From the NCBI RefSeq assembly GCF_032854445.1, contig NC_088306.1:18695764-18759763 (forward strand): a stretch of 64,000 nucleotides of DNA. The letters are read 5' to 3'. This DNA comes from Liolophura sinensis (taxonomy: Eukaryota; Mollusca; Polyplacophora; Chitonida; Chitonidae). The position numbers and the translations under genes were made by a program. Position 1 is the stretch's first letter. Every line of letters begins with the position of its first letter. Below, piece after piece: positions 5,101-61,160 of the stretch. The notes under the pieces were generated by a model. It saw nothing but the letters and a program-made list of their open reading frames with translations, searched no databases and was not told the DNA's origin.

Positions 5101-8100
5101 AGCTTGTGCATTGCCCACTATCTGAAAGAAGATAGCTTTCGTTCGTCGCACACGACAAAACATTGTGCATGAATGTCTTTGATATTTGGCGCAGCTCCAC
5201 AAAAGACAAAAACTTACAGAAAAGTTCACTGCAGACGAGAGTAAAGTGTTCGAGGCAAGTGCCGCGAATAAATTTTTGCTAAGCAAATAGTTCCCGGGCT
5301 TAAACGTCATGCGTGCTTAACTTACCTGCAAACACAAAGCTGTATAGGTAAGACCCTGAAGACTCCGCCAAGAGAGCTGCGAGACAAAAATTAATGTTTG
5401 GGAATAAAAATAAATAAATATTAATTAGTTTATTTATTTGATCATTAGTTATCGTCGAATTAAAAAACTTCCGATACTTTGACGATTAGTTTTAATGGTG
5501 GAATAAATACAATAAAGTTTTACGATAAAGATTAAGTTTTAAATCTCATGCATAGTGTAAATATTTAATGAAATACGGTACTAAGTGTTGTGAACGCGCG
5601 TTTACATTTGTGTTGAGTATAGATAATTAATGTTACATGGCACAGTTAACTGTGGTTTAACGCTATCATATGATGTTCAACATATGTTCTAACAGATAAG
5701 GGTAATTCATTGATTTGATCGGTGAATATTCACTTATACGCCGGTGGCCAGCATTATGGTGGGAAGAAATCGGACAGAGCCCAAGGGAAAGGATGAGGGT
5801 AATTGTTCAATACATTCTATGCTTAGCATGTAGACGACAACAAGAAAGAGGTTACTGTGAAGTATTTCTTTAAAACCATTAGGCGTGAGGACGGAAATGC
5901 CGTTTGTTATTTCAACTGATTTCGTTACCTGTCACGGGCGGTCCTATCAAGTAGCCAGTTCCCGATACCATCATCTCGACGCCGAAGGCTGTAGCAAGGT
6001 GCGCCAGTCCTGCTAAGTCTTTCGTCATTGGCGTTAGCACTACGTAAGGTCCTCCGGTAAAGAGTCCCATTAGACCAGCAAATGCCATGGACAACGTTAA
6101 AGAGGGAGAAACAAAGGGAAAGCCTGTTGTCAAGACAGCTATTATGGCAAACGAAGCACAATATAAAATAAACTTGTCCACGAAGGCTACAGTAAATCCC
6201 GTGAGAAGTCGCGAGACAATGTTACAGACGCCCATGACTGTGAAGAGAAGCGCAGACTGTGTCATGGTGGCTCCGTTGAACATGACGTAGCTGGGTAAAT
6301 ACATGTTCACCCAGGAAACGGTTATACTCCACAGGAAAATGCTGCTGTAAAACAAAAGCATGGGCAGGCTGAGGACGACTTTCAAAGAAGTTTTAATCGT
6401 CTTCTTCCAGTGAGACTCCGGACCAGAAGGGGGGTCATCCAGAGGTTTCTCCGTGACGGCTCCTGGGTGGTCGGAATGATCAGCACGATTCCCCCAATGG
6501 GATCTTTCCACGCTGTTCGGATGAATAATCATGGCAGACACGAACAGATTGGCGCTGATCCCAGCTAACATCAGGAACATTCCACGCCAGCCGAAAACGT
6601 TCTCGAAGAATCCAAGCAGCGGGGCACCAACTAGCATACCGATTCCTCCTCCAGTCATGACCAGGGCGATGGCCACGTTTAAGTACTTGTCAAAGTAAAA
6701 CCCTATTATCACCACAGAAGGTGCAAATACCATACCAGAGCCAAGGCCTGCAAAACAAACAAGTTTCTTGTGACTGATGATATAGAAAACAGTGGGCAAT
6801 TTTAACGTGGCATTGACCACATCCGCAGACCGGACAGGTAGATGTTAGTGTTACAGTAGTAACCCTGTAATGAGTTCCAGTGTAATACTATTTTATGATT
6901 CCACTATTTCTCCTTCGAAAGCTCAGCTCAATTTCAGATTAATAAGTCTTAGCGCTCATCTCACCTAACATTGTCCTTTCGACCAACACGTACGTGAGTT
7001 TTACGCATCTCAATTGTCACTGTAAGGAAACGGTGAGGTTTAAGAGTAAATGAATGGTCATGGCTAAACGGCCTATCGGCAATATTTCAGTACGTCTGTA
7101 AGGGCAACCTCACTTGTCATTAAGAACAGTGTTATGTTTTAGATTAAAGTTCCTCACCTGTCATTAAGGACAGTGTGATGTTTTAAATTAAGGCTCCCAT
7201 GAGATTCTCCAGACTACCTCACCTGACATTAAGGACAGACTAATCTTTTAGAATCAGTCTCCATGGATTTCTGCTCACTACCTCACCTGTCATTACGGAC
7301 AGTGTCATGTATTACATTAAGGCTCCATTGGGTTTCTGCTGGCTATCTCACCTGTCATTAAGGAGAGAGTGACGTACAGGTGGTCCAGTCTTGTGACAAA
7401 TGCACTGGCTGTACAGCCGATGAAGATGAGGAGGCTACCGAGCATCATGGACGTTCTACAGCTGGTCATGTTTGTCAAGAATCCAACCAACGGACCTACG
7501 ACGGTAAAGTTATTTATTGATTTATTTACTTATTTGATTGGTGTTTTACGCCGTACTCAAGAATATTTCACTTATTCCACGGCGGCCAGCATTGTGATGG
7601 GACGAAATAGGGCAGATTCCGGGGGGAAACCCACGACCATCAGCAGGTTGCTGGAAGACCTACACACATACGGGGGTAAAGTTAAGACGAAGAATAGCAG
7701 TATGATACCCACAATAGTGCAAAGCTAATGTATACGTCTGAGTTGACACTGCTATAACGGCCTTGCACACTTCATCTGACACTGTTCACAGTTGTAAGAG
7801 ATTGTGACACTCTTACGAAGAATCTGCGAGCTATATTTAATGATAAATTATGGAGTCCACAAATTCGCATAATATATCCAGTAACTTAAAGTTAATTTAT
7901 TTATTTAAACGACTGATATTTTACACCATACTCAAGAATATTTCACTTATACGACGATGGCCAGCATTACGGTGGGAGGAAATCGACCATAGCCTGGGGG
8001 AAACATACGACCATCCACAGGCTGCTCCAATGATTATATTTCTAATGGTCTTAAATAAATGTTATATCATATACATGTTTTTATATATTGTTTTTAGTTT

Positions 8101-12961: not shown

Positions 12962-13938
12962 TGAAAAGAGGATTTACATGTAAATCTGAGACTGCTATAT
13001 GTAGTACACTAAAGCTTCTCGTGGTGAACAGTACCACCTTGTATTTGAACCCAGGAGAATGCATGGTGATCACGGATAGTACCAGAAAAGAGGATTTACA
13101 TGTAAATCTGAGACTGCTATATGTAGTACACGAAAGCTTCTCGTGGTAAACAGTACCTCCTTGTATTTGAACCCAGGAGAATGCATGGTGATCACGGATA
13201 GTACCAGAAAAGAGGATTTACATGTAAATCTGAGACTGCTATATGTAGTACACTAAAGCTTCTCGTGGTGAACAGTACCACCTTGTATGTGAACCCAGGA
13301 GAATGCATGGTGATCACGGATAGTACCAGAAAAGAGGATTTACATGTAAATCTGAGACTGCTATATGTAGTACACTAAAGCTTCTCTTGGTGAACAGTGC
13401 CACCTTGTATGTGAACCCAGGAGAATGCATGGTGATCACGGGTAGTACCAGAAAAGAGGATTTACATGTAAATCTGAGACTGCTATATGTAGTACACTAA
13501 AGCTTCTCTTGGTGAACAGTACCACCTTGTATGTGAACCCAGGAGAATGCATGGTGATCACGGATAGTACCAGAAAAGAGGATTTACATGTAAATCTGAG
13601 ACTGCTATATGTAGTACACTAAAGCTTCTCGTGGTGAACAGTACCACCTTGTATGTGAACCCAGGAGAATGCATGGTGATCACGGATAGTACCAGAAAAG
13701 AGGATTTACATGTAAATCTGAGGCTGCTATATGTAGTACACTAAAGCTTCTCTTGGTAAACAGTACCTCCTTGTATTTGAACCCAGGAGAATGCATGGTG
13801 ATCACGGATAGTACCAGAAAAGAGGATTTACATGTAAATCTGAGACTGCTATATGTAGTACACTAAAGCTTCTCTTGGTAAACAGTACCACCTTGTATTT
13901 GAACCCAGGAGAATGCATGGTGATCATGGATAGTACCA
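12962..13938. repeat. 122-bp satellite, 8 copies
   Basis: Starts at 12962, 13085, 13207, 13329, 13451, 13573, 13695 and 13817; spacing 122 (first 123). Copies differ at only a few positions each. Every unit has the perfect 16-base palindrome GATTTACATGTAAATC and ends in gatagtaccag. Because 122 is not a multiple of 3, no long frame is preserved. Confidence 0.95.
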
Positions 13939-14109
13939 GTGCTTGTATTTGTTCTTTTACTGACAGTGCACTTTACTGTTATCTCTCTTTTTCTTTTTCC
14001 TGGACTCGTTTTATGCATGGATATTTCTAAAATTCAGTGACAAGGACAAACATTTGTGCTAAACATCAAAATTCTGTTGTGTAATGGGCTACTGTCATGA
14101 CTGTAGTAT

Positions 14110-22172: not shown

Positions 22173-22186
22173 CGATTCGCTGTTTA

Positions 22187-25100
22187 TACGGGTATTGGGT
22201 ACACAGACATGTTTATATGGGTATTGGGTTCACAGACCTGTTTACATGGGTATTGGGTACACAGACCTGTTTATATGGGTATTGAATACTCAGACATGTT
22301 TATATGGGTATTGGATACTCAGACATGTTTATATGGGTATGTGATACTCAGACATGTTTATATGGGTATTGAATACTCAGACATGTGCATATGGGTATTG
22401 GATACTCAAACATGTTTATATGGGTATTGAATACTCAGACATGTTTATATGGGTATTGAATACTCAGACATGTTTATATGGGTATTGGATACTCAGACAT
22501 GTGCATATGGGTATTGGATACTCAGACATGTTTATATGGGTATTGGATACTCAGACATGTTTATATGGGTATTGGATACCCAGACATGTTCATATGAGTA
22601 TTGAATACTAAGACATGTTTATATGGGTATTGGATACTCTGACATGTTTATATGGGTATTGGATACTCAGACATGTTTATATGGGTATTGAATACTCAGA
22701 CATGTTTATATGGGCATGTGATACTTAGACATGTTTATATGGGTATAGAATACTCAGACATGTTTATATGGGTATGTGATACTCAGACATGTTTATATGG
22801 GTAGTGAATACTTAGACATGTGCATATGGGTATTGAATACTCAGACATGTTTATATGGGTATTGAATACTCAGACATGTTTATATGGGTATTGAATACTC
22901 AGACATGTTTATATGGGTATTGAATACTCAGACATGTTTATATGGGTATTGGATACTCAGACATGTTTATATGGGTATTGGATACTCAGACATGTTTATA
23001 TGGGTATTGAATACTCAGACATGTTTATATGGGTATTGGATACTCAGACATGTTTATATGGGTGTTGGATACTTATACATGTTTATATGGGTATTGGATA
23101 CTCAGACATGTTTATATGGGTATTGGATACTCAGACATGTTTATATGGGTAATGGATACTCAGACATGTTTATATGTGTATTGAATACTCACACATGTTT
23201 ATATGGGTATTGGATACTCAGACATGTTTATATGGGTATTGAATACTCAGACATGTTTATATGGGTATTGGATACTCAAACATGTTTATATGGGTATTGA
23301 ATACTCAGACATGTTTATATGGGTATTGAATACTCAGACATGTTTATATGGGTATTGGATACTCAGACATGTTTATATAGGTATTGGATACTCAGACATG
23401 TTTATATGGGTATTGGATACTCAAACATGTTTATATGGGTATTGGATACTCAAACATGTTTATATGGGTATTGAATACTCAGACATGTTTATATAGGTAT
23501 TGGATACTCAGACATGTTTATATGGGTATTGAATACTCAGACATGTTTATATGGGTATTGGATACTCAAACATGTTTATATGGATATTGGATACTCAAAC
23601 ATGTTTATATGGGTATTGGATACTCAAACATGTTTATATGGGTATTGGATACTCAAACATGTTTTTATGGGTATTGGATACTCAGACATGTTTATATAGA
23701 TATTGGATACTCAAACATGTTTATATGGGTATTGGATACTCAGACATGTTTATATGGGTATGTGAAACCCAGACATGTTCATATGGGTATTGAATACTCA
23801 GAGATGTTCATATGGGTATTGGATACTCAAACATGTTTATATGGGTATTGGATACTCAAACATGTTTAATATGGGTATTGGATATTCAAACATGTTTATA
23901 TGGGTATTGGATACTCAAACATGTTTATATGGGTATGTGATACCCAGACATGTTCATATGGGTATTGGATACTCAGACATGTTTATATGGGTATTGGATA
24001 CTCAGACATGTTTATATGGGTATTGAATACTCAGACATGTTTATATGGGTATTGGATACTCAGACATGTTTATATGGGTATTGAATACTCAGACATGTTT
24101 ATATGGGTATTGGATACTCAGACATGTTTATATGGGTATTGAATACTCAGACATGTTTATATGGGTATTGAATACTCAGACATGTTTATATGGGTATTGA
24201 ATACTCAGACATGTGCATATGGGTATTGGATACTCAGACATGTTTATATGGGTATTGGATACTCAGACATGTTTATATGGGTATTGAATACTCAGACATG
24301 TGCATATGGGTATTGAATACTCAGACATGTGCATATGGGTATTGGATACTCAGACATGTTTATATGGGTATTGAATACTCAGACATGTGCATATGGGTAT
24401 TGAATACTCAGACATGTGCATATGGGTATTGAATACTCAGACATGTTTATATGGGTATTGAATACTCAGATCTGCATATGGGTATTGGATACTCAGACAT
24501 GTTTATATGGGTATTGGATACTCAGACATGTTTATATGGGTATTGAATACTCAGACATGTTTATATGGGTATTGGATACTCAGACATGTTTATATGGGTA
24601 TTGAATACTCAGACATGTTTATATGGGTATTGAATACTCAGACATGTGCATATGGGTATTGAATACTCAGACATGTGCATATGGGTATTGAATACTCAGA
24701 CATGTGCATATGGGTATTGGATACTCAGACATGTTTATGTGGGTATTGAATACTCAGACATGTTTATATGAGTATTGGATACTCAGACATGTTTATATGG
24801 GTATTGAATACTCAGACATGTTTATATGGGTATTGGATACTCAGACATGTTTATATGGGTATTGGATACTCAGACATGTTTATATGGGTATTGGATACTC
24901 AAACATGTGCATATGGGTATTGGATACTCAGACATGTTTATATGGGTATGTGATACTCAGACATGTTTATATGGGTATTGGGTACTCAGACATGTTTATA
25001 TGGAAATTGGTTACCCGGAACTGTTTATATTGGTACTGGATACTCAGACATGTTTATATGGGTATTGGGAGCCCGGACCTGTTTATATGGGTATTGAGTA

Positions 25101-26335
25101 CCCAGAACTGATTGTGTTGGTATTGGGTACTCAGACCTGGTTATATGGGTATCGGGTACCCAGAACTGTTTACATGGGTATTGGGTACCCAGACCTGTTT
25201 ATATGGGTATTGGGAGCCCGGATCTGTTTATATGGGTATTGAGGAACCAGAACTGATTGTGTGGGTATTGGGTGCTCAGACCTGTTTATATGGGTATTGG
25301 GAACCCGGATCTGTTTGTATGGGTATTGGATACCCAGAACTGTTTATATTGGTATTGGGGGCTGAGAACTGTTTATATGGGTTTTGGGAATCCGGATCTG
25401 TTTATATGGGTATTGAGTACCCAGAACTGAATGTGTGGGTATTGGGTACCCAGATCTGTTTATATGGGCATGGGGTACCCAGAACTGTTTATATGGGTAT
25501 TGGATACTCAGACATGTTTATATGGGTATTGGATACTCAGACATGTTTATATGGGTATTGGATACTCAAACATGTTTATATGGGTATTGAATACTCAGAC
25601 ATGTTTATATGGGTATTGGGCCTGTATAAGGACTGTATGTATAAGTACATATGGGTACTGAGTATCTAGACATGTTAATATAGGTATTGGGTGCTCAGAA
25701 CTGTTTATATGGGTACTGAGTACCCAGAACTGTTTATATAAGTAGTGGGAACCCGGATCTGTTTATATGGGTATTGGGTATCCAGATCTATTTGTATGGG
25801 TATTGAGTACCCAGAACTGTTTATATGGGTATTGGGTACTCAGATCTGTTTATATGGATATTGAGTACTTGGGTCTGTTTATATGGGTATTGAGTACCCA
25901 GAATTGTTTATATAAGTATTGGGAACCCGGATCTATTTATATGGGTTATTGGGTACCCGGATCTGTTTATATGGGTATTTAGTACCCAGAACTGTTTATA
26001 TGGGTATTGGGTACTCAGACCTGTTTATATGGATATTGGGTATTCAGAACTGATTATATGGATATTGGATACTCAGACATGTTTATATGGGTATTGGGTA
26101 CCCGGATCTGTTTATATGGGTATTGAGTACCCAGAACTGTTTATATGGGTATTGGGTACTCAGACCTGTTTATATGGGTATTGGGTACTCAGACCTGTTT
26201 ATATGGGTATTGGGTATTGAGTACCCAGAACTGATTACATGGATATTGGATACTCAGACATGTTTATATGGGTATTGGGTGCTCAGATCTATTTATATGG
26301 GTATTGGGTGCTCATATCTATTTATATGGGTATTG
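22187..26335 (+). repeat. 29-bp minisatellite, about 143 copies (4.1 kb)
   Basis: Unit core acatgtttatatgggtatt plus ggatactcag. Two unit classes: A (ggatactcag or gaatactcag, then acatg), filling 22260-25000 and 25490-25615; and B (gtacccag or aacccgg, then aactg or atctg), filling 25000-25490 and 25660-26335. Within A, g/a at one position and tt/gc at another (gcatatggg) alternate. The unit has no stop in any forward frame, so three units (87 bases) make a 29-residue repeat in each frame. Breaks come from rare indels (near 23867 and 24471). A coding role is unlikely but not excluded. Confidence 0.97.
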
Positions 26336-29545: not shown

Positions 29546-29760
29546 ATAAGGTCTCTCACCAATGCGACCACTGTGAGTTCAAGTCCAGCTTATGCTGGCT
29601 TCCTCTCCGGCCGTAAGTGGGAAGGTCTGACAGCAACCTGCAGATGGTCGTGGGTTTCCCCCGGGCTGTGCCCGGTTTCCACCCACCATAATGCTGCGTC
29701 GTCGTATAAGTGAAAAAATCTTGAGTACGGCGTAGAACACCAATCAAATAAATAAATAGA
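29546..29760 (+). repeat. SINE-A copy, nearly full
   Basis: From ctctcaccaatgcgaccac through the cggcgtagaacaccaatcaa end and tail; well conserved. Confidence 0.88.
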
Positions 29761-35587: not shown

Positions 35588-35866
35588 TTTATTTATTATT
35601 TATTTCTTTGATTGATGTTTTACGCCATACTCAAGAATATTTCACTTATACGACGGCGGCCAGCATTATGGTGGGTGGAAACAGGGCACAGCCCGGGGGA
35701 AACCCACGACCATCCGCAGGTTGCTGGAAGACCTTCCCACTTACGGCCGGAGAGGAAGCCAGCATGAGCTGGACTTGAACTCACAGCGACCGCATTGGTG
35801 AGAGGCTCCTGGGTCATTACGCTACGCTAGCGCGATAACCGACTAAGCCACGTAGCCCCCCCTCCC
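35588..35866 (-). repeat. SINE-A, full length
   Basis: One of the best copies: (aaat)n tail, cgccatactcaagaatattt, the central body, B box complement ggacttgaactc and the tRNA head to ctaagccacgtagcccc. Confidence 0.93.
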
Positions 35867-36934: not shown

Positions 36935-37735
36935 TTATTGCGCCTGTCAGCAACACGCAGTGCTCAAAAGGTATTTGGAAAAACGACAGACATCCAAAAG
37001 ACACCGTGCAGAGACAATTCTTTTTTTGTTAAATAAGCAAACCGTTTTTATACACGCACTCCAATATATATTTTCAACTTCCATATGTCTAAAGAACAAA
37101 TACAAATTTGATTCCATATGACATGAATGAAAAAACACGCAATGTATATGTTGCGCCTACGAGCCTCCCTTCCCAAACATAGAATACTTTAATAACTATG
37201 GTTTTTTTTCTTAAAAAAAAAAAAAAAACTTCTGTTAAATCGCTTCCAGGGTGATGACGGGTTACATTTTTGTCCATTAAGCGGAAGAAATCCATTCCGG
37301 ATTACTTCTTAATTTGGTGTCAGGAACGGATTAACTCATTATTAAAAACGCATTTTCAAGATTGGATTTATGTGTTACATTGACGTAAATCCAATTCGTC
37401 ATCACTCACGGAACGAATTTAAGGGAAGTTTTTTTTTTTAGGGTTTTTTATCCTCACAGCAACGCAGAATTTTCACTGGTCTAATTATTACAGTGACGGA
37501 AATTAAATGTATATCGTGAACATATTCCCTGACGATTTTGTGCCCATAAAAGAACACATGCAATTTGATTTGTGAATAAAACGAAAGCACAAGAAAAAAT
37601 ATTAGTCGCATTTAGAGAACATACACATTTCAATAGTAAAGCCACTGTCATTTGTAACTTGTAATTTTTTACATCTTGTTTACGACTACATATACATGAG
37701 CACATTCATAGCCCCAAGCATGTAGTTTCACTGTA
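36935..37735. other. Intergenic, nothing recognised
   Basis: Long A or T runs at 37201-37228; no gene. Confidence 0.3.
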
Positions 37736-38142
37736 GATCAGCGTGCCGTGACCTCCAATAGATGACTGTTGATTAGCCTGTTATATGACCTCGAGCAGTC
37801 TATCGCGGATCAGCGCGCCATGACCTCCTGCAAACGGGTATGTATAGCTTAGCGTGCCATTCCCTCCAGCAAACCGGTGTGTATAGATTAGCGTGCCATG
37901 AGCTCCAGCAAACCGGTGTGTATAGATTAGGGTGCCATGACCTCCAGAAAACGGGTGTGTATAGATTAGCGTGCCAGTACCTCCAGCAAACCAGTGTGTA
38001 TAGATTAGCGTGCCAGTACCCCCACCAAACGGGTGTATATAGATTAGTGTGCCATGACCACCAGCAGACGACTGTAGATCAGACTGTTCTATGACCCCCA
38101 GCAGACAACTGCAGATCAGCGTGCCATGACCTCCAGCAAACG
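37735..38142 (-). repeat. 39-bp minisatellite overlapping the TLR stop
   Basis: About ten units of cgtgccatgacctccagc, then aaaccggtgtgtatagatta. The unit at 38116-38142 is at the same time the last codons and stop of the Toll-like receptor. The array continues away from the gene and decays outwards. Confidence 0.9.
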
Positions 38143-40561
38143 GTTCCAGAAGATCCGTTCGTCACCCAGGTCATTGGCCGGCCACAGCAGGAATGTAATG
38201 TGATTCCAAAGGTTCAGCAGCGACCGTGGCATTTCCGACACGGGAATCTCTTCCATCATGATCACAATAATGGCGTTTTCATAACCATCTCTCACCATGC
38301 GCATGCCCGTCATTTGAATTTCAAATTCACACCAATCGCTTTTCAGGAACGACTTGTTGATGACTAGGATAACTTTGCGACTGTTGTTCACGGCGTCCAC
38401 TATGTTTTGCTGAATACTGACACCCACCGGGAAGTCTCGATCATGGAGACAGATCGTGTAGTTGTTTTCATCTTCCAGAAATTGTCGCAGAACAATGCAA
38501 GCCCATCGGTAACTGAAGTAATTATACGCTACGAAGGCATCGTATCGGTATTGTTCATTTGTCACTTCTTCAACGACAGAACCTCTCCTGCATTTTGTCA
38601 GAACCCAATATTTGATATTCCACCTGTAACGGTAGGCAAATATTCCTAGAACAATTACCACGGCCATCAGACTCGAGCCAACTGTGGAAAATGTCAACCA
38701 AAAGTTGCTGACACAAGATACTTCCATGTTCTTAAGCTTTGATGTGAGGCTACCAATATCCACGAACGTTCCATTTCCTAGACTGCACGTTAAGGTCAAA
38801 CGTGCTTCAACATTGGCTGAGCCGTCTAGAAGCCATCGCACAAAACTGACGGTGTTACAAGTGCAGAGGAGGGGGTTACGGTTCAGTGAAACTCTGACAG
38901 CATCTTTTGAGTGGGATGAATTGTCAGCGGTCAACCAGTCCATTTGTGCGCGTGACAAAGATGAAATCACATTGGATGACAAGTCCAAGAATGTCAACGA
39001 GACCAAATCATAGATGGACTCTGGTATATGGATCAGCTTATTGTTTGACAGGATCAAGGTTTCTAAACTTTGCAGCGGACTGAAGATGAATCTGCTTAGT
39101 GTTGTAAAATCGTTACTCGAGAGATCGAGGGTTTTCAGATGTTTCAAACTTTTGAAGATGACAGCATCTAAATCATAGCGAAAGCCAATGTCCAGTCTAC
39201 AATTTCTGGCCACCAAAACCTGAAGTGAGGTAAAATAGCTGAAGAATCTTGGAGATAACACAGCACAGTTCCATTTGGATATGTTCAGCACTTTCAAGTT
39301 CTCCAGACCAGTTACGACAAAGGAACAATCTTTGAATCCGTCATATGACACATCAAGAACTTCCACATTTTTTTCCATTAGTAAAGTTTACATCCTTATC
39401 AATTCTAATCAAACCGGCTAGAAAACTAGCGTTCAAAACTACCAAAGATGGCGGCACCACCAAATTATATTGAAAAACAGAGCTCTTCGTCCACACAAGA
39501 TCGCTGACCTCTCTCACAGTAAACGCATAACGTCTTCCTGGACTGATATTTAAATACTTTAACCTTGTGAAGTGTATCACGCCAATTGCTGCTAAGTAGC
39601 TAGTAGCGACGGGCAGATAATTGTTTCCAAAGTTAAATGTTTCTAGACACTCGGGGTACTGGAATCGGCTGAAGACATCTATTCCCACATGGATTATGGC
39701 ATTTTTGCTCAAGTCCAGGTGACGAACACAAATAGTCGCCAAGTGAGCCGTGTTGTTTGCAGTGAGAGCCAAGGTTTCGGGGTCCCTGCTGAACCCTTTG
39801 TCAGAATTTGTATTTGTGATTGTCAGATATGTCATATGGCGATGGCGCAGGTCCACGAGAGCTGATAAGGCGTTGGGTAGCGATTTTGTTCTCAGATTTA
39901 GACTTGTCACATGCGGAAAATGCTTCAAAGTCCCTTCCTCTAAACTCTGGCATCTCAACACCAATGACTGAATTGATAAGTTGGCAAACGCAGCAAATGT
40001 GTCTGGTCTGAGGCTGCTTCCAAATTCCCAACAGTAAACGGACAGACTTTTAAGCTGAGACATGCTCATGACGCCCGGTCCAAATGAAACATTGTGCAAC
40101 GGCTCGTCAACAGTCAACTCCTTCAGTGATATCAGGCTGCTGAATATCTCGTCTGGAAACTGATACGCACGGGATGAATAGCCTGGGCTATTTTCATCCA
40201 TATTTAGGATCTCTAGCTTTTGTGTAGGATGAAATACTGTGGGTGGATAGGATTCATACTCCAGCACAAATCGGTTGTTGCTTAGATCCAGGAAGCGTAG
40301 TTGTGATAATCCCTCGAACGCTGATGGTTCTAACCTCACAAGTTTGTTGTGATTTAAACTCAGTGATATAAGCCTGCTGAGAATTCGAAAGGATCCATTG
40401 GTTATCGTCTCCAGAAGATTCCAACTCAAATCCAGGCTTTCTGTTGTTGATGAGATATTTGTAGGTACGGTCCGCAGTCCTTTGTTGTGGAGATCAACAT
40501 GGTTGTCCCCATACACCGCGTTGAGAAGAACGGTTCCCAACAGAAATGCGTACACTTCCAT
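38116..40561 (-). CDS. Toll-like receptor, intronless, one frameshift
   Basis: Pattern-recognition receptor of innate immunity. 814 aa after removing one A from an A7 run (39374-39368). Order: signal peptide 1-18; leucine-rich repeats about 20-560; a single C-terminal LRR cap with Cys 566, 568, 592, 616; membrane helix 620-644; cytoplasmic TIR domain 671-810 with box 1 YDAFVAY (673-679), box 2 RDFPVG (708-713) and box 3 FW (804-805). A single cysteine cluster makes it the vertebrate-like (sccTLR) type. An acceptor-like ttttcccttag lies 18 bases before the ATG, so a 5' UTR intron is possible. Box 2 is unusual: most TLRs have RDxxPG, and here Pro is one place earlier. The inverted second copy is at 53.56-55.88 kb. 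The frameshift may be an assembly error, as the rest is intact. Confidence 0.92.
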
Positions 40562-43429: not shown

Positions 43430-44250
43430 ATTTCCATGTTCCTCACAGTCAAGCTTTTAACAACAATTGCCGGACTCACTTCCATACGTCTCACACCCCA
43501 GGTCCCAACGACTGTAATTGTCGGATTCACTTCCATATTTCTCACGGCCCAGGTTTCAACATCTGTAATTGCCGGATTCACTTCCATATTTCTGACAGCC
43601 CAACATCTGTAATTGCCAGATTCACTTCCATATTTCTGACAGCCCAGGTTTCAACATCTGATACAGTAATTGACAGACTCGCTTCCATATTTCTCACAGC
43701 CCAGGTTTCAACATCTGTAATTGCCGGATTCACTTCCGTATTTCTGACAGCCCAGGCTTCAACATCCGTAATTGCCGGGTTCATTTCCATATTTCTGACA
43801 GCCCAGGTTTCAACATCTGATACAGTAATTGACAGACTCACTTTCATATTTCTCACAGCCCAGGTTTCAACAACTGTAATTGCCGGATTCACTTCCATAT
43901 TTCTGACAGCCCAGGTTTCAGCATCCGTAATTGCCGGATTCATTTCCATATTTCTGACAGCCCAGGTTTCAACATCTGATACAGTAATTGACAGACTCAC
44001 TTCCATATTTCTCACAGCCCAGGTTTCAACAACTGTAACTGCTGGATTCACTTCCATATTTCTCACAGCCCAGGTTTCAGCATCCGTGATTGCCGGATTC
44101 ATTTCCATATTTCTAACAGCCCAGGTTTCAACATCTGATACAGTAATTGACAGACTCACTTCCATATTTCTCACAGCCCAGGCTCCAACAACTGCGATTG
44201 CCGGATTCACATCCATACTTCTCCCAACCCAGGTTCCAACAACTGCTATC
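43430..44250 (-). repeat. 51/57-bp minisatellite with higher-order structure, about 16 units
   Basis: Units contain cacttccatatttctcacag and cccaggtttcaac. Two lengths occur, 51 and 57 (the longer has gatacagtaattgacagac). In the right two thirds they alternate 57-51-51, a 159-base higher-order unit. On the reverse strand 213 codons are open (44216-43578) because both lengths are multiples of 3; each unit contains WAVRN. A 7-base deletion near 43602 breaks the frame. No known protein family. Confidence 0.93.
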
Positions 44251-46439: not shown

Positions 46440-46704
46440 ATTAATTTATTTATTTGATTGGTGTTTTACGCCGTACTCAAGAATATTTCACTTATACGAC
46501 GGCGGCCAGCATTATGGTGGGAGGAAACCGGGCAGAGCCCGGGGGAAACCCACGACCATCTGCAGGTTGCTGGAAGACCTTCCCACTTACGACTGGAGAG
46601 GAAGCCAGCATGAGCTGGACTTGAACTCACAGCGACCGCATTGGTGAGAGGCTTCTGGGTCATTACGCTGCGCTAGCGCGCTAACCGACTGAGCCACGGA
46701 GGCC
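46440..46704 (-). repeat. SINE-A, full length reference copy
   Basis: The cleanest copy: tail, cgccgtactcaagaatattt, gcagagcccgggggaaaccc, ggacttgaactcacagcgac, and the head gcgcgctaaccgactgagcc. Read on the minus strand the A box is tggctcagtcggttagcgcg. Confidence 0.95.
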
Positions 46705-51411: not shown

Positions 51412-51590
51412 GGTGCTGGCTTCCTCTCCGGCCGTAAGTGGGAAGGTCTGCCAGCAACCTGCGAATGGTCGTGGGTTTTCCCCGGGCTCTGCCCGGTTTC
51501 CACCCACCATAATGCTGACCGCCGTCGTATAAGTGAAATATTCTTGAGTACGGCGTAAAACACCAATCAAATAAATAAATAAGTATAAGG
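51412..51590 (+). repeat. SINE-A, 5'-truncated
   Basis: Starts at ggtgctggcttcctctccgg; the 3' end is near consensus with an (aaat)n tail. Confidence 0.9.
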
Positions 51591-53548: not shown

Positions 53549-55883
53549 TGGCGAACCATGTTGATCTCCACAACAAAGGACTGAGGGTCGTAGCTACAAA
53601 TATTCCATCAACAACAGAAAACCTGGATTTGAGTTGGAATCTTTTGGAGACGATGAATCAATGGAATTCTAACTTGTGAGGTTAGAACCACCAGCGTTCG
53701 GAGGGTTATCACAACTACGCTTCCTGGATCTAAGCAACAACCGATTTGTGCTGGAGTATGAATCCTATCCACCCACAGTATTTCATCCTACACAAAAGCT
53801 AGAGATCCTAAATATGGATGAAAATAGCCCAGGCTATTCATCCCGTGCGTATCAGTTTCCAGACGAGATATTCAGCAGCTTGATATCACTGAAGGAGTTG
53901 ACTATTGACGAGCCGTTGCACAATGTTTCATTTGGACCGGGCGTCATGAGCATGTCTCAGCTTAAAAGTCTGTCCGTTTACTGTTGGGAATTTGGAAGCA
54001 GCCTCAGACCAGACACATCTGCTGCGTTTGCCAACTTATCAATTCAGTCATTGGTGTTGAGATGCCAGAGTTTAGAGGAAGGGACTTTGAAGCATTTTCC
54101 GCATGTGACAAGTCTAAATCTGAGAACAAAATCGCTACCCAACGCCTTATCAGCTCTTGTAGACCTGCGCCATTGCCATATGACATATCTGACAATCACA
54201 AATACAAATTCTGACAAAGGGTTCAGCAGGGACCCCGGAACCTTGGCTCTCACTGCAAACAACACGGCTCACTTGGCGACTATTTGTGTTCGTCACCTGG
54301 ACGAGCAAAAATGCCATAATCCATGTGGGAATAGATGTCTTCAGCCGATTCCAGTACCCGGAGTGTCTAGAAACATTTAACTTTGGAAACAATTATCTGC
54401 CCGTCGCTACTAGCTACTTAGCAGCAATTGGCATGATACAACTCAAAAGGTTAAAGTATTTAAATATCAGTCCAGGAAGACGTTATGCGTTTACTGTGAC
54501 AGAGAACAGCGATCTTGTGTTGACAGAGACCTCTGTTTTTCAATTAAATCTGGTGGTGCCGTCATCTTGGTAGTTTTGAACGCTAGTTTTCTAGCCGGTT
54601 CGGTTAGAAGTGATAAGGATGTAAACTTTACTAAGGAAAAAAGTTCTTGATGTGTCACACGACGGTCAATACGTCAATGGTTGTTCTTTTGTCGTATCCG
54701 GTCTGGAGAACTGTGCTGAACATATCCAAATGGAACACTGCTGCGTTATCTCCAGGATTATTCAGGTATTTTGCCTCACTTCAGGTTTTGGTGGCCAGAA
54801 ATTGTAGACTGAGCACTGACTTTCGCTATGATTTGGATGCTGTTATCTTCACAAATTTGAAACATCTGAAAACCCTCGATGAGTAACGATTTTACAACAC
54901 TAAGTAGATTCATCTTCAGTCCGCTGCAAAGTTTAGAAACCTTGATCCTGTCAAACAATAAGCTGATCCATATACCAGAGTCCATCTATGATTTGGTCTC
55001 ATTGACATTCTTGGACTTGTCATCCAATGTGATTTCATCTTTGTCACGTGCACAAATGGACTGGTTGACCGCTGACAATTTATCCCGCTAAAAAGATGCT
55101 GTCAGAGTTTCACTGAACCGTAACCCCTCCTCTGCACTTGTAACACCGTCAGTTTTGTGCGATGGCTTGTAGAAGGCTCTGCCAATGTTGAAGCACGTTT
55201 GACATTAACGTGCAGCCGAGGAAATGGAACGTTCGTGGATATTGGTAGCCTCAAATCAAAGCTTAAGAACATGGAAGTATCTTGTGTCAGCAACTTTTGG
55301 TTGACATTTTCCACAGTTGGCTCGGGTCTGATGGCCGTGGTAATTGTTCTAGGAATATTTGCCTACCGCTACAGATTGAATATCAAATATTGGGCTCTGT
55401 CAAAATGCAGGAGAGGTTCTGTCGTTGAAGAAGTGACAAACGAACCGATACCGAGACGATGCCTTCGTAGCGTATAATTACTTCAGTTACCGATGGGCTT
55501 GCATTGTTCTGCGACAATTTCTGGAAGATGAAAACAACTACACGATCTGTCTCCATGATCGAGACTTCCCGGTGGGTGTCAGTATTCAGCAAAACATAGT
55601 GGACGCCGTGAACAACAGTCGCAAAGTTATCCTAGTCATCAACAAGTCGTTCCTGAAAAGCGATTGGTGTGAATTTGAAATTCAAATGACGGGCATGCGC
55701 ATGGTGAGAGATGGTTATGAAAACGCCATTATTGTGATCATGATGGAAGAGATTCCCGTGTCGGAAATGCCACGGTCGCTGCTGAACCTTTGGAATCACA
55801 TTACATTCCTGCTGTGGCCGGGCAATGACCTGGGTGACGAACGGATCTTCTGGAACCGTTTGCTGGAGGTCATGGCACGCTGA
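53549..55883 (+). pseudogene. Toll-like receptor pseudogene, inverted copy
   Basis: Same gene as 38116-40561 on the opposite strand. Homology begins at aaccatgttgatctccacaa, codon 20 of the intact copy, so the signal peptide was never copied or has been lost. Lesions seen: a deletion of about 60 bases near 53660-53685; frame changes near 54303, 54570 and 54640; a stop or deletion at 54885 (the LRR phrase LKTLDLSSND becomes LKTLDE and stop); stop at 55089; frame changes near 55135 and 55445. The last 103 codons, including the BB loop, box 3 and stop at 55881-55883, are intact. It cannot make a receptor as it stands. Confidence 0.93.
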
Positions 55884-56285
55884 TCTATACAAACCAGTTT
55901 GCAGGAGGTCATGGGACGCTGATCTGCGGTTGTATGCTGAAGGTAATGACACGTCGATCTATACACACCCGTTTGCTGGATGTCATGGCACACTACTCTA
56001 TACACACCGGTTTGCTGGGGGTCATCGCACGCTAATCTATACACAGCCGTTTGTTGGAGGTCATAGCACTCTAATCTATACAAACCCCTTTTGCTGGAGG
56101 TCATGGCACGTTTATCTATACACACTCGTTTGCTGGAGGTAATGGCACTGTAATCTATACACACCCGTTTGCTGGAGATAATGACACGCTAATCTATACA
56201 CAGCCGTTTGCTGGAGGTCATGGCACGTTGGTCTATATACACCCGTTTTCTGGAGGTCATGGCACGCTAATCTATACACGTGCCT
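55857..56285 (+). repeat. 39-bp minisatellite overlapping the TLR pseudogene stop
   Basis: About 11 units of cgtttgctggaggtcatggc, then acgctaatctatacacac. As in the intact gene, the first unit is the last codons and stop. It matches 37735-38142 in inverse orientation. Confidence 0.92.
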
Positions 56286-61011: not shown

Positions 61012-61160
61012 GACTGTACGTGGAAGGTCTTGCAGCACCCTGCGAATGGTGGTGGGTTTCCCCCGGGGTATGTCCAGTTTCCTCTCACCATAATGTTGGC
61101 CGCCGTCGTATAAGTGAAATATTCTTGAGTACGGCGTAAAACACCAATCAAATAAATCGT
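61012..61160 (+). repeat. SINE-A, 3' half, well conserved
   Basis: gactgtacgtggaaggtctt to tgagtacggcgtaaaacacc plus tail. Confidence 0.88.

Follow-up and report, generated by a model that had tools for sequence, protein, structure and literature searches.

The last eight codons and the TGA stop codon of a minus-strand Toll-like receptor (TLR) gene (27 bases, stop at 38116) form the start of a tandem array that reaches to about 37730. Comparison with related genes indicates that this array is very probably a clade-specific 3′ minisatellite, born from the end of a TLR gene, which drifts as non-coding DNA and is nearly neutral for the protein. A preliminary description had proposed that the codons for RLLEVMAR and the stop were the first unit of the array, and this was confirmed by the end of the open reading frame (ORF), a unit-by-unit reading, pattern matches and a consensus that differs at one position. 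Positions refer to the window, the whole stretch of 64,000 nucleotides analysed, which is C12:18695764-18759763 in a single 609-Mb assembly of Liolophura sinensis. Features of the two gene copies in the window, A and B, are listed in Table 1.

Table 1. Toll-like receptor copies A and B and their arrays, in window positions.
Feature	Positions	Strand	Description and basis
Copy A TLR, 3′ reading frame	38116..39378	-	Leucine-rich repeats (LRR) and TIR domain, ends RLLEVMAR-TGA; ORF call, Pfam, structure alignment
Copy A, 5′ reading frame	39353..40561	-	Start and first leucine-rich repeats; split from the 3′ frame by a frameshift
Probable founding unit	38116..38142	-	Last eight codons and stop codon; unit reading, pattern match, consensus; tail similar in array-less paralogues
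Remainder of proximal 35+37 bp pair	38071..38115	-	Right behind the stop; unit reading
Six 39-bp units	37837..38070	-	In frame with the gene, in-frame TAA in each; unit reading
Distal 35, 37 and 35-type units	37730..37836	-	Unit reading
Copy B TLR	53551..55883	+	Inverted, 5′-truncated, frameshifted; ends RLLEVMAR-TGA; alignment to copy A
Copy B array	55857..56282	+	Coding unit, then 39, 35 and 40 bp units; TRF, unit reading

A Toll-like receptor combines leucine-rich repeats and a C-terminal TIR domain in one protein, and both were found here. The 420-aa ORF of copy A matched LRR_8 (1.9e-19), TIR_2 (1.2e-11) and TIR in Pfam, its TIR part aligned to the solved TIR structures of TLR2, TLR15, TLR6 and TLR1, and the sister copies T1 and T6 are open frames of 847 aa (T2, a further copy, has one internal TGA). 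Copy A itself carries a single frameshift, at an A7 run (39368-39374) where T6 has A6, which may reflect decay of the copy or an error in base calling. A frameshift common to copies A and B was dropped as a candidate because T6 has A6, and the change belongs to copy A or is a miscalled base. Single-sequence structure prediction of the TIR end was unusable (mean pLDDT 36.9), the last 44 residues gave only chance-level matches to solved structures, and viral contigs searched with the TLR protein and with the repeat unit yielded no relative. Elsewhere in the window, ORFs at 190-1104 and 5912-6820 matched a galactose-3-O-sulfotransferase and a major facilitator transporter.

TRF reported the copy A array as a 39-bp array at 37808-38070 and a 37-bp array at 38041-38142. 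Read downward from 38142, it consists of a 35+37 pair with the coding unit first, six units of 39 bp, another 35+37 pair and, at the end, one 35-type unit. Identity between the proximal 72-nt stretch (38136-38065) and the distal pair is 79%. The units lie within the roughly 10-100 bp of a minisatellite, and the earlier label of a 39-bp minisatellite fits the middle of the copy A array but not the 35- and 37-bp units on either side. A 29-nt coding-unit pattern (at most 3 mismatches) had 16 matches in the window, all inside the two arrays, and none in 100 dinucleotide shuffles, so the array is not due to chance. Similarly, a 24-nt core at 16/24 or better occurred at 20 places in the window, every one inside the two arrays.

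We built a consensus from 13 clean downstream 39-mers (an extra base was removed from one; other units were left out), and the coding 27-mer differed from it at one position, TGA versus TAA. Differences over these 13 units were spread alike over codon positions 1, 2 and 3 (12, 10 and 12, respectively), and the units are therefore not kept as protein. The 12-nt spacer did not resemble the upstream coding sequence above chance (1150/5000 shuffles were at least as good). A pair of GATCT motifs 38 nt apart, one in the coding region and one at the stop, was considered as a founding microhomology and not relied on: the motif was picked post hoc, and any 5-mer drawn at random from the window has a second copy 38-39 nt upstream at 1.0% of positions, or at 1.9% if distances of 36-41 nt are allowed.

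The window holds other repeats. These include a 29-bp array of approximately 143 copies (22181-26335), a 122-bp array of 8 copies with 97% match (12963-13939), and a 51-bp array that entirely contains a 212-aa ORF (43578-44216) whose weak Pfam matches look spurious. A dispersed repeat forms inverted pairs of approximately 124-169 bp at 78-95% identity (35596-35764, 46444-46610, 51414-51582, 29553-29696, 61022-61157 and others); it is probably SINE-like, the name being a guess.

Copy B (53551-56282 with its array) is missing the beginning of the gene and is interrupted by several frameshifts. Its array opens with the coding unit, as in copy A and as initially described for the inverted copy, but continues with a 39-type spacer. 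Homology between A and B ends near the far end of the array and is absent in the flank beyond, while copies of the same type share the flank too. Divergence among clean 39-mers was 0.152 within A, 0.172 within B and 0.164 between A and B (permutation p 0.54), so there is no copy-specific homogenisation, and the diversity of the 39-mers most likely predates the split of A and B. The array had been held to be older than the inverted duplication; its presence at all seven C12 copies and a C1 pseudogene, with 39-mers no closer within than between A and B, agrees with this.

Genome-wide, the unit pattern had at least 63 matches, at least 61 of them in seven clusters at C12:18.634-18.787 Mb, one at C1:64848463 and one at C12:18372721; a reversed-pattern control found 0 matches in the whole genome. 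The seven clusters are TLR copies (in kb on C12): T1 (18634, minus), T2 (18646, minus), T3 (18663, plus), A, B, T6 (18769, minus) and T7 (18786, plus). Six of them form three minus/plus pairs approximately 17 kb apart, one of which is the pair at 37.7-56.3 kb of the window. At C1 the match belongs to a TLR pseudogene, whose diverged array has a 35-bp period and starts 58 nt past the stop; the match at C12:18372721 sits in an unrelated 19-bp array without a TLR match. The unit is thus not a dispersed satellite or mobile repeat with copies at many unrelated places.

Searching the genome with the TLR protein gave 102 match rows at E up to 1e-10, many with open frames of more than 800 codons, and by these matches the genome holds a large TLR family. 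From these rows we drew 53 separate TLR places whose 3′ side was inspected (29 in a first set, 20 and 4), some remaining rows being fragments of places already counted; the first set comprised 30 loci at 29 places, as L059 and L064 are both copy B. The tail-derived array was present at 8/53 places: looking for the same array at other TLR genes, as had been suggested, revealed it at five further C12 copies and the C1 pseudogene in addition to A and B. TRF covered the 30 first-set loci, L088-L091 (only 701-801 nt each) and L036, with L068-L087 left out. A self-match test did not reach the locus's own tail at L066 and L085 and met atypical tails at L072 and L080; array-less L053 and L068 had one isolated self-match each (18/27), taken as chance.

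Some array-less TLRs have other repeats behind them. L067 (C6:73415440-73419678) has a 51-bp array of approximately 26 copies 36 nt past its stop, the unit of which is not its coding tail; L053 (C5) has a 108-bp array of 6.9 copies 126 nt past its stop, and L054 (C10) a related 106-bp repeat of 1.9 copies at 131 nt. Between C12 copies and between C10/C5 copies the TIR end is more alike than the ectodomain, third codon positions included, and partly so on C11.

The preliminary description suggested that changes in array length could alter the C terminus. This did not hold among the C12 copies. The span from the stop unit to the last unit is 417 nt in T1, 377 in T2, 378 in A, 345 in T6, 387 in T3, 387 in B and 348 in T7, and despite this range all seven copies end RLLEVMAR-TGA. 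Whole-unit change in copy number was seen between paralogues, with exactly one 39-nt gap in 3/9 same-type pairs (T1-A, T3-T7 and B-T7). The rest were more complex or of equal length: T3-B had no gap, and five gapped pairs had no clean unit step (T1-T2, 42 nt in 3 gaps; T1-T6, 72 nt; T2-A, 3 nt in 3 gaps; T2-T6, 36 nt in 3 gaps; A-T6, 33 nt). The TIR ends of the C12 copies are nearly identical, probably owing to conversion, and for this near-identity the seven tails do not count as separate tests of how stable the tail is.

We also simulated exchanges between the coding unit and the downstream units. In copy A (eight downstream units × 27 junctions) the stop was kept in 216/216 cases, with 0-3 residue changes, yet in copy B (ten units), where some units have lost the stop, it was kept in 165/270 and the other 105 ran on to 21 or 34 residues. 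Most units hold both tail and stop, and an exchange extending into the coding unit would therefore scarcely change how the protein ends. In A-type copies, altering the array close to the stop would thus be largely harmless, and less so with the decayed units of B.

A further reading is that the tail of the gene still takes part in the array: sequence would keep moving between the two, and the C terminus would be rewritten from a downstream store, almost harmlessly because of the stops in most units. In T6 the stop is directly followed by a 39-type spacer, the 35+37 pair is lost, and the tail carries a synonymous GAG to GAA change. Furthermore, the C12 tail has TTG as its second codon, a codon shared with 39/51 downstream 39-type units; C11 has CTG there and C1 CTA. 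However, TTG is found in some 35-type units as well and could have arisen without a 39-type unit, which weakens the case for exchange from array to tail. In T1, T2 and A, moreover, the first 39-type unit carries CTG. On these sequences we regard such rewriting as doubtful.

The array most likely has no selected function. Three functional readings, each compatible with an origin from the coding tail, were weighed. It could be selected as a fail-safe, with extra in-frame stops catching read-through of the TGA. The following in-frame stop comes 8 codons later in A and 12 codons later in B. Frame 0 of the A stretch contains 10 stops including the gene's own, compared with 4 and 2 for the two other frames, and every 39-bp unit of T1, T6 and A retains a stop. 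Additional stop codons are said to be under selection in several eukaryotes (PMC6764699). Extra in-frame stops arise in any case because the unit copied carries a stop, and no stop enrichment was seen beyond that from unit copying. The T2 array is also out of frame across several units, in each B-type array the stop is lost from four units, and array-less TLRs are open without an array. We therefore consider selection for extra stops very unlikely.

Equally little credence can be given to the array as a structured regulatory element of the 3′ UTR. Downstream of the stop, AATAAA or ATTAAA first occurs beyond the array in 7/7 C12 copies, so that the predicted transcript may include the array. 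Folding of the arrays, however, is poorer than that of shuffled sequence (A, z 2.6; B, z 4.6; 100/100 shuffles at least as good for each), and they had no Rfam match at gathering score.

It is also very improbable that the array is a hotspot of conversion, holding the TIR domain uniform as the ectodomains drift apart. Copies A and B do differ at just 2/433 sites in the last stretch and at 91/1895 upstream. Third-position divergence among A-type copies rises from 0.007 in the last 429 nt to 0.021-0.039 upstream, and among B-type copies from 0/429 at the end to 0.019-0.052 upstream. However, the array-less C10/C5 TLRs have a similar gradient (0.10 versus 0.23-0.46), so the array is not needed for TIR uniformity; in the array-less C11 TLRs the gradient is only partial (0.046 versus 0.018-0.125).

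The order of events, tail first or array first, was read from the array-less paralogues. A closely similar tail, such as RLLDGMAR or RLLEVMARP, was found at 16/21 array-less places of the first set: 10 on C11 end like RIFWSRLLDGMAR and 6 on C10/C5 end FWDRLLEVMARP. Of the other five, one (L066) is not in frame, and the tails of the remaining four (L060, L061, L065 and L067) have diverged further, LFWERLTSALE being an example. In a tree of the last 420 nt of 26 of the 30 first-set loci (L061, L064, L065 and L066 left out), the eight array carriers fell on one side of one branch (support 87/98). Array presence mapped as one change in 86% of 200 bootstrap trees, the remaining 14% lacking a single array change, compared with a mean of 7.1 changes when shuffled (0/500 as low). 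The similar tails together with the placement of the carriers on one branch argue that the coding tail is older and founded the array, as originally proposed, and the founding event was most likely single. That an unrelated satellite or mobile repeat was instead inserted at the stop and provided the last codons is extremely unlikely, for although the window abounds in minisatellites, the array-less C11, C10 and C5 paralogues have a closely similar tail, the tail's FW-x-x-L pattern occurs in TLR15 and many other TLRs of the genome, and of the at least 63 unit matches at least 61 belong to the C12 cluster, with one more at the C1 TLR and another in an unrelated array of 19-bp units. Absence of the array beside orthologues, together with derivation of the shared bases from an unrelated inserted repeat, had been named in advance as counting against a founding coding tail. 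The array is absent beside related paralogues, but an unrelated inserted repeat is contradicted by the tails of those same paralogues.

Founding by the coding tail would have proceeded as follows. C1 and the flanks of the A-type arrays share a 35-nt form, made up of eight codons, TGA and 8 nt; the sequence behind the stop of array-less paralogues differs from this 8-nt spacer. Paralogue comparison suggests that these 35 nt, the last eight codons, the stop and the 8 nt following, were tandemly duplicated in the common ancestor from which the C12 cluster and the C1 pseudogene descend, and that the duplicated stretch expanded into a minisatellite in the TLR 3′ flank. The 35-bp form is probably older than the 39-bp form, which is absent at C1 and would have spread later within the C12 arrays, presumably via slippage or unequal exchange. 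Gene and array were copied together into the alternating inverted cluster on C12. The array would since have drifted as non-coding DNA, with whole units gained or lost.

Several features are shared with known repeats. Like gene-associated minisatellites (VNTRs), the array has head-to-tail units of 35-40 bp, some unit-step length differences between copies, and unit drift; unlike them, its first unit is coding sequence with a stop, and its length differences are known between paralogues only. Human CEL has a C-terminal coding VNTR, likewise a repeat at the 3′ end of a coding region. In the TLR array only the first unit is translated, in contrast to a coding VNTR with several translated units: the stop lies in the first unit of 7/7 C12 copies and later units lie behind it, so a change in length does not lengthen the protein. 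Human SLC6A3 (DAT1) has a 3′ UTR VNTR with a 40-bp repeat, which is near in unit size and, like the TLR array, placed after the stop; the TLR array, too, may be transcribed. The TLR unit differs in holding the coding tail and stop. A literature search by titles and abstract openings, which is weak evidence given its limited coverage, found no minisatellite with a unit made of a gene's last codons and stop.

It is often no longer possible to recognise the source from which a minisatellite arose. Here the source would be a conserved coding end, with the array-less paralogues representing the state before and the C1 pseudogene and seven C12 copies later states. A repeat spanning a stop codon can be nearly protein-neutral through its layout, and the array may be seen as a tidy example of the birth of a repeat, not as a new system.
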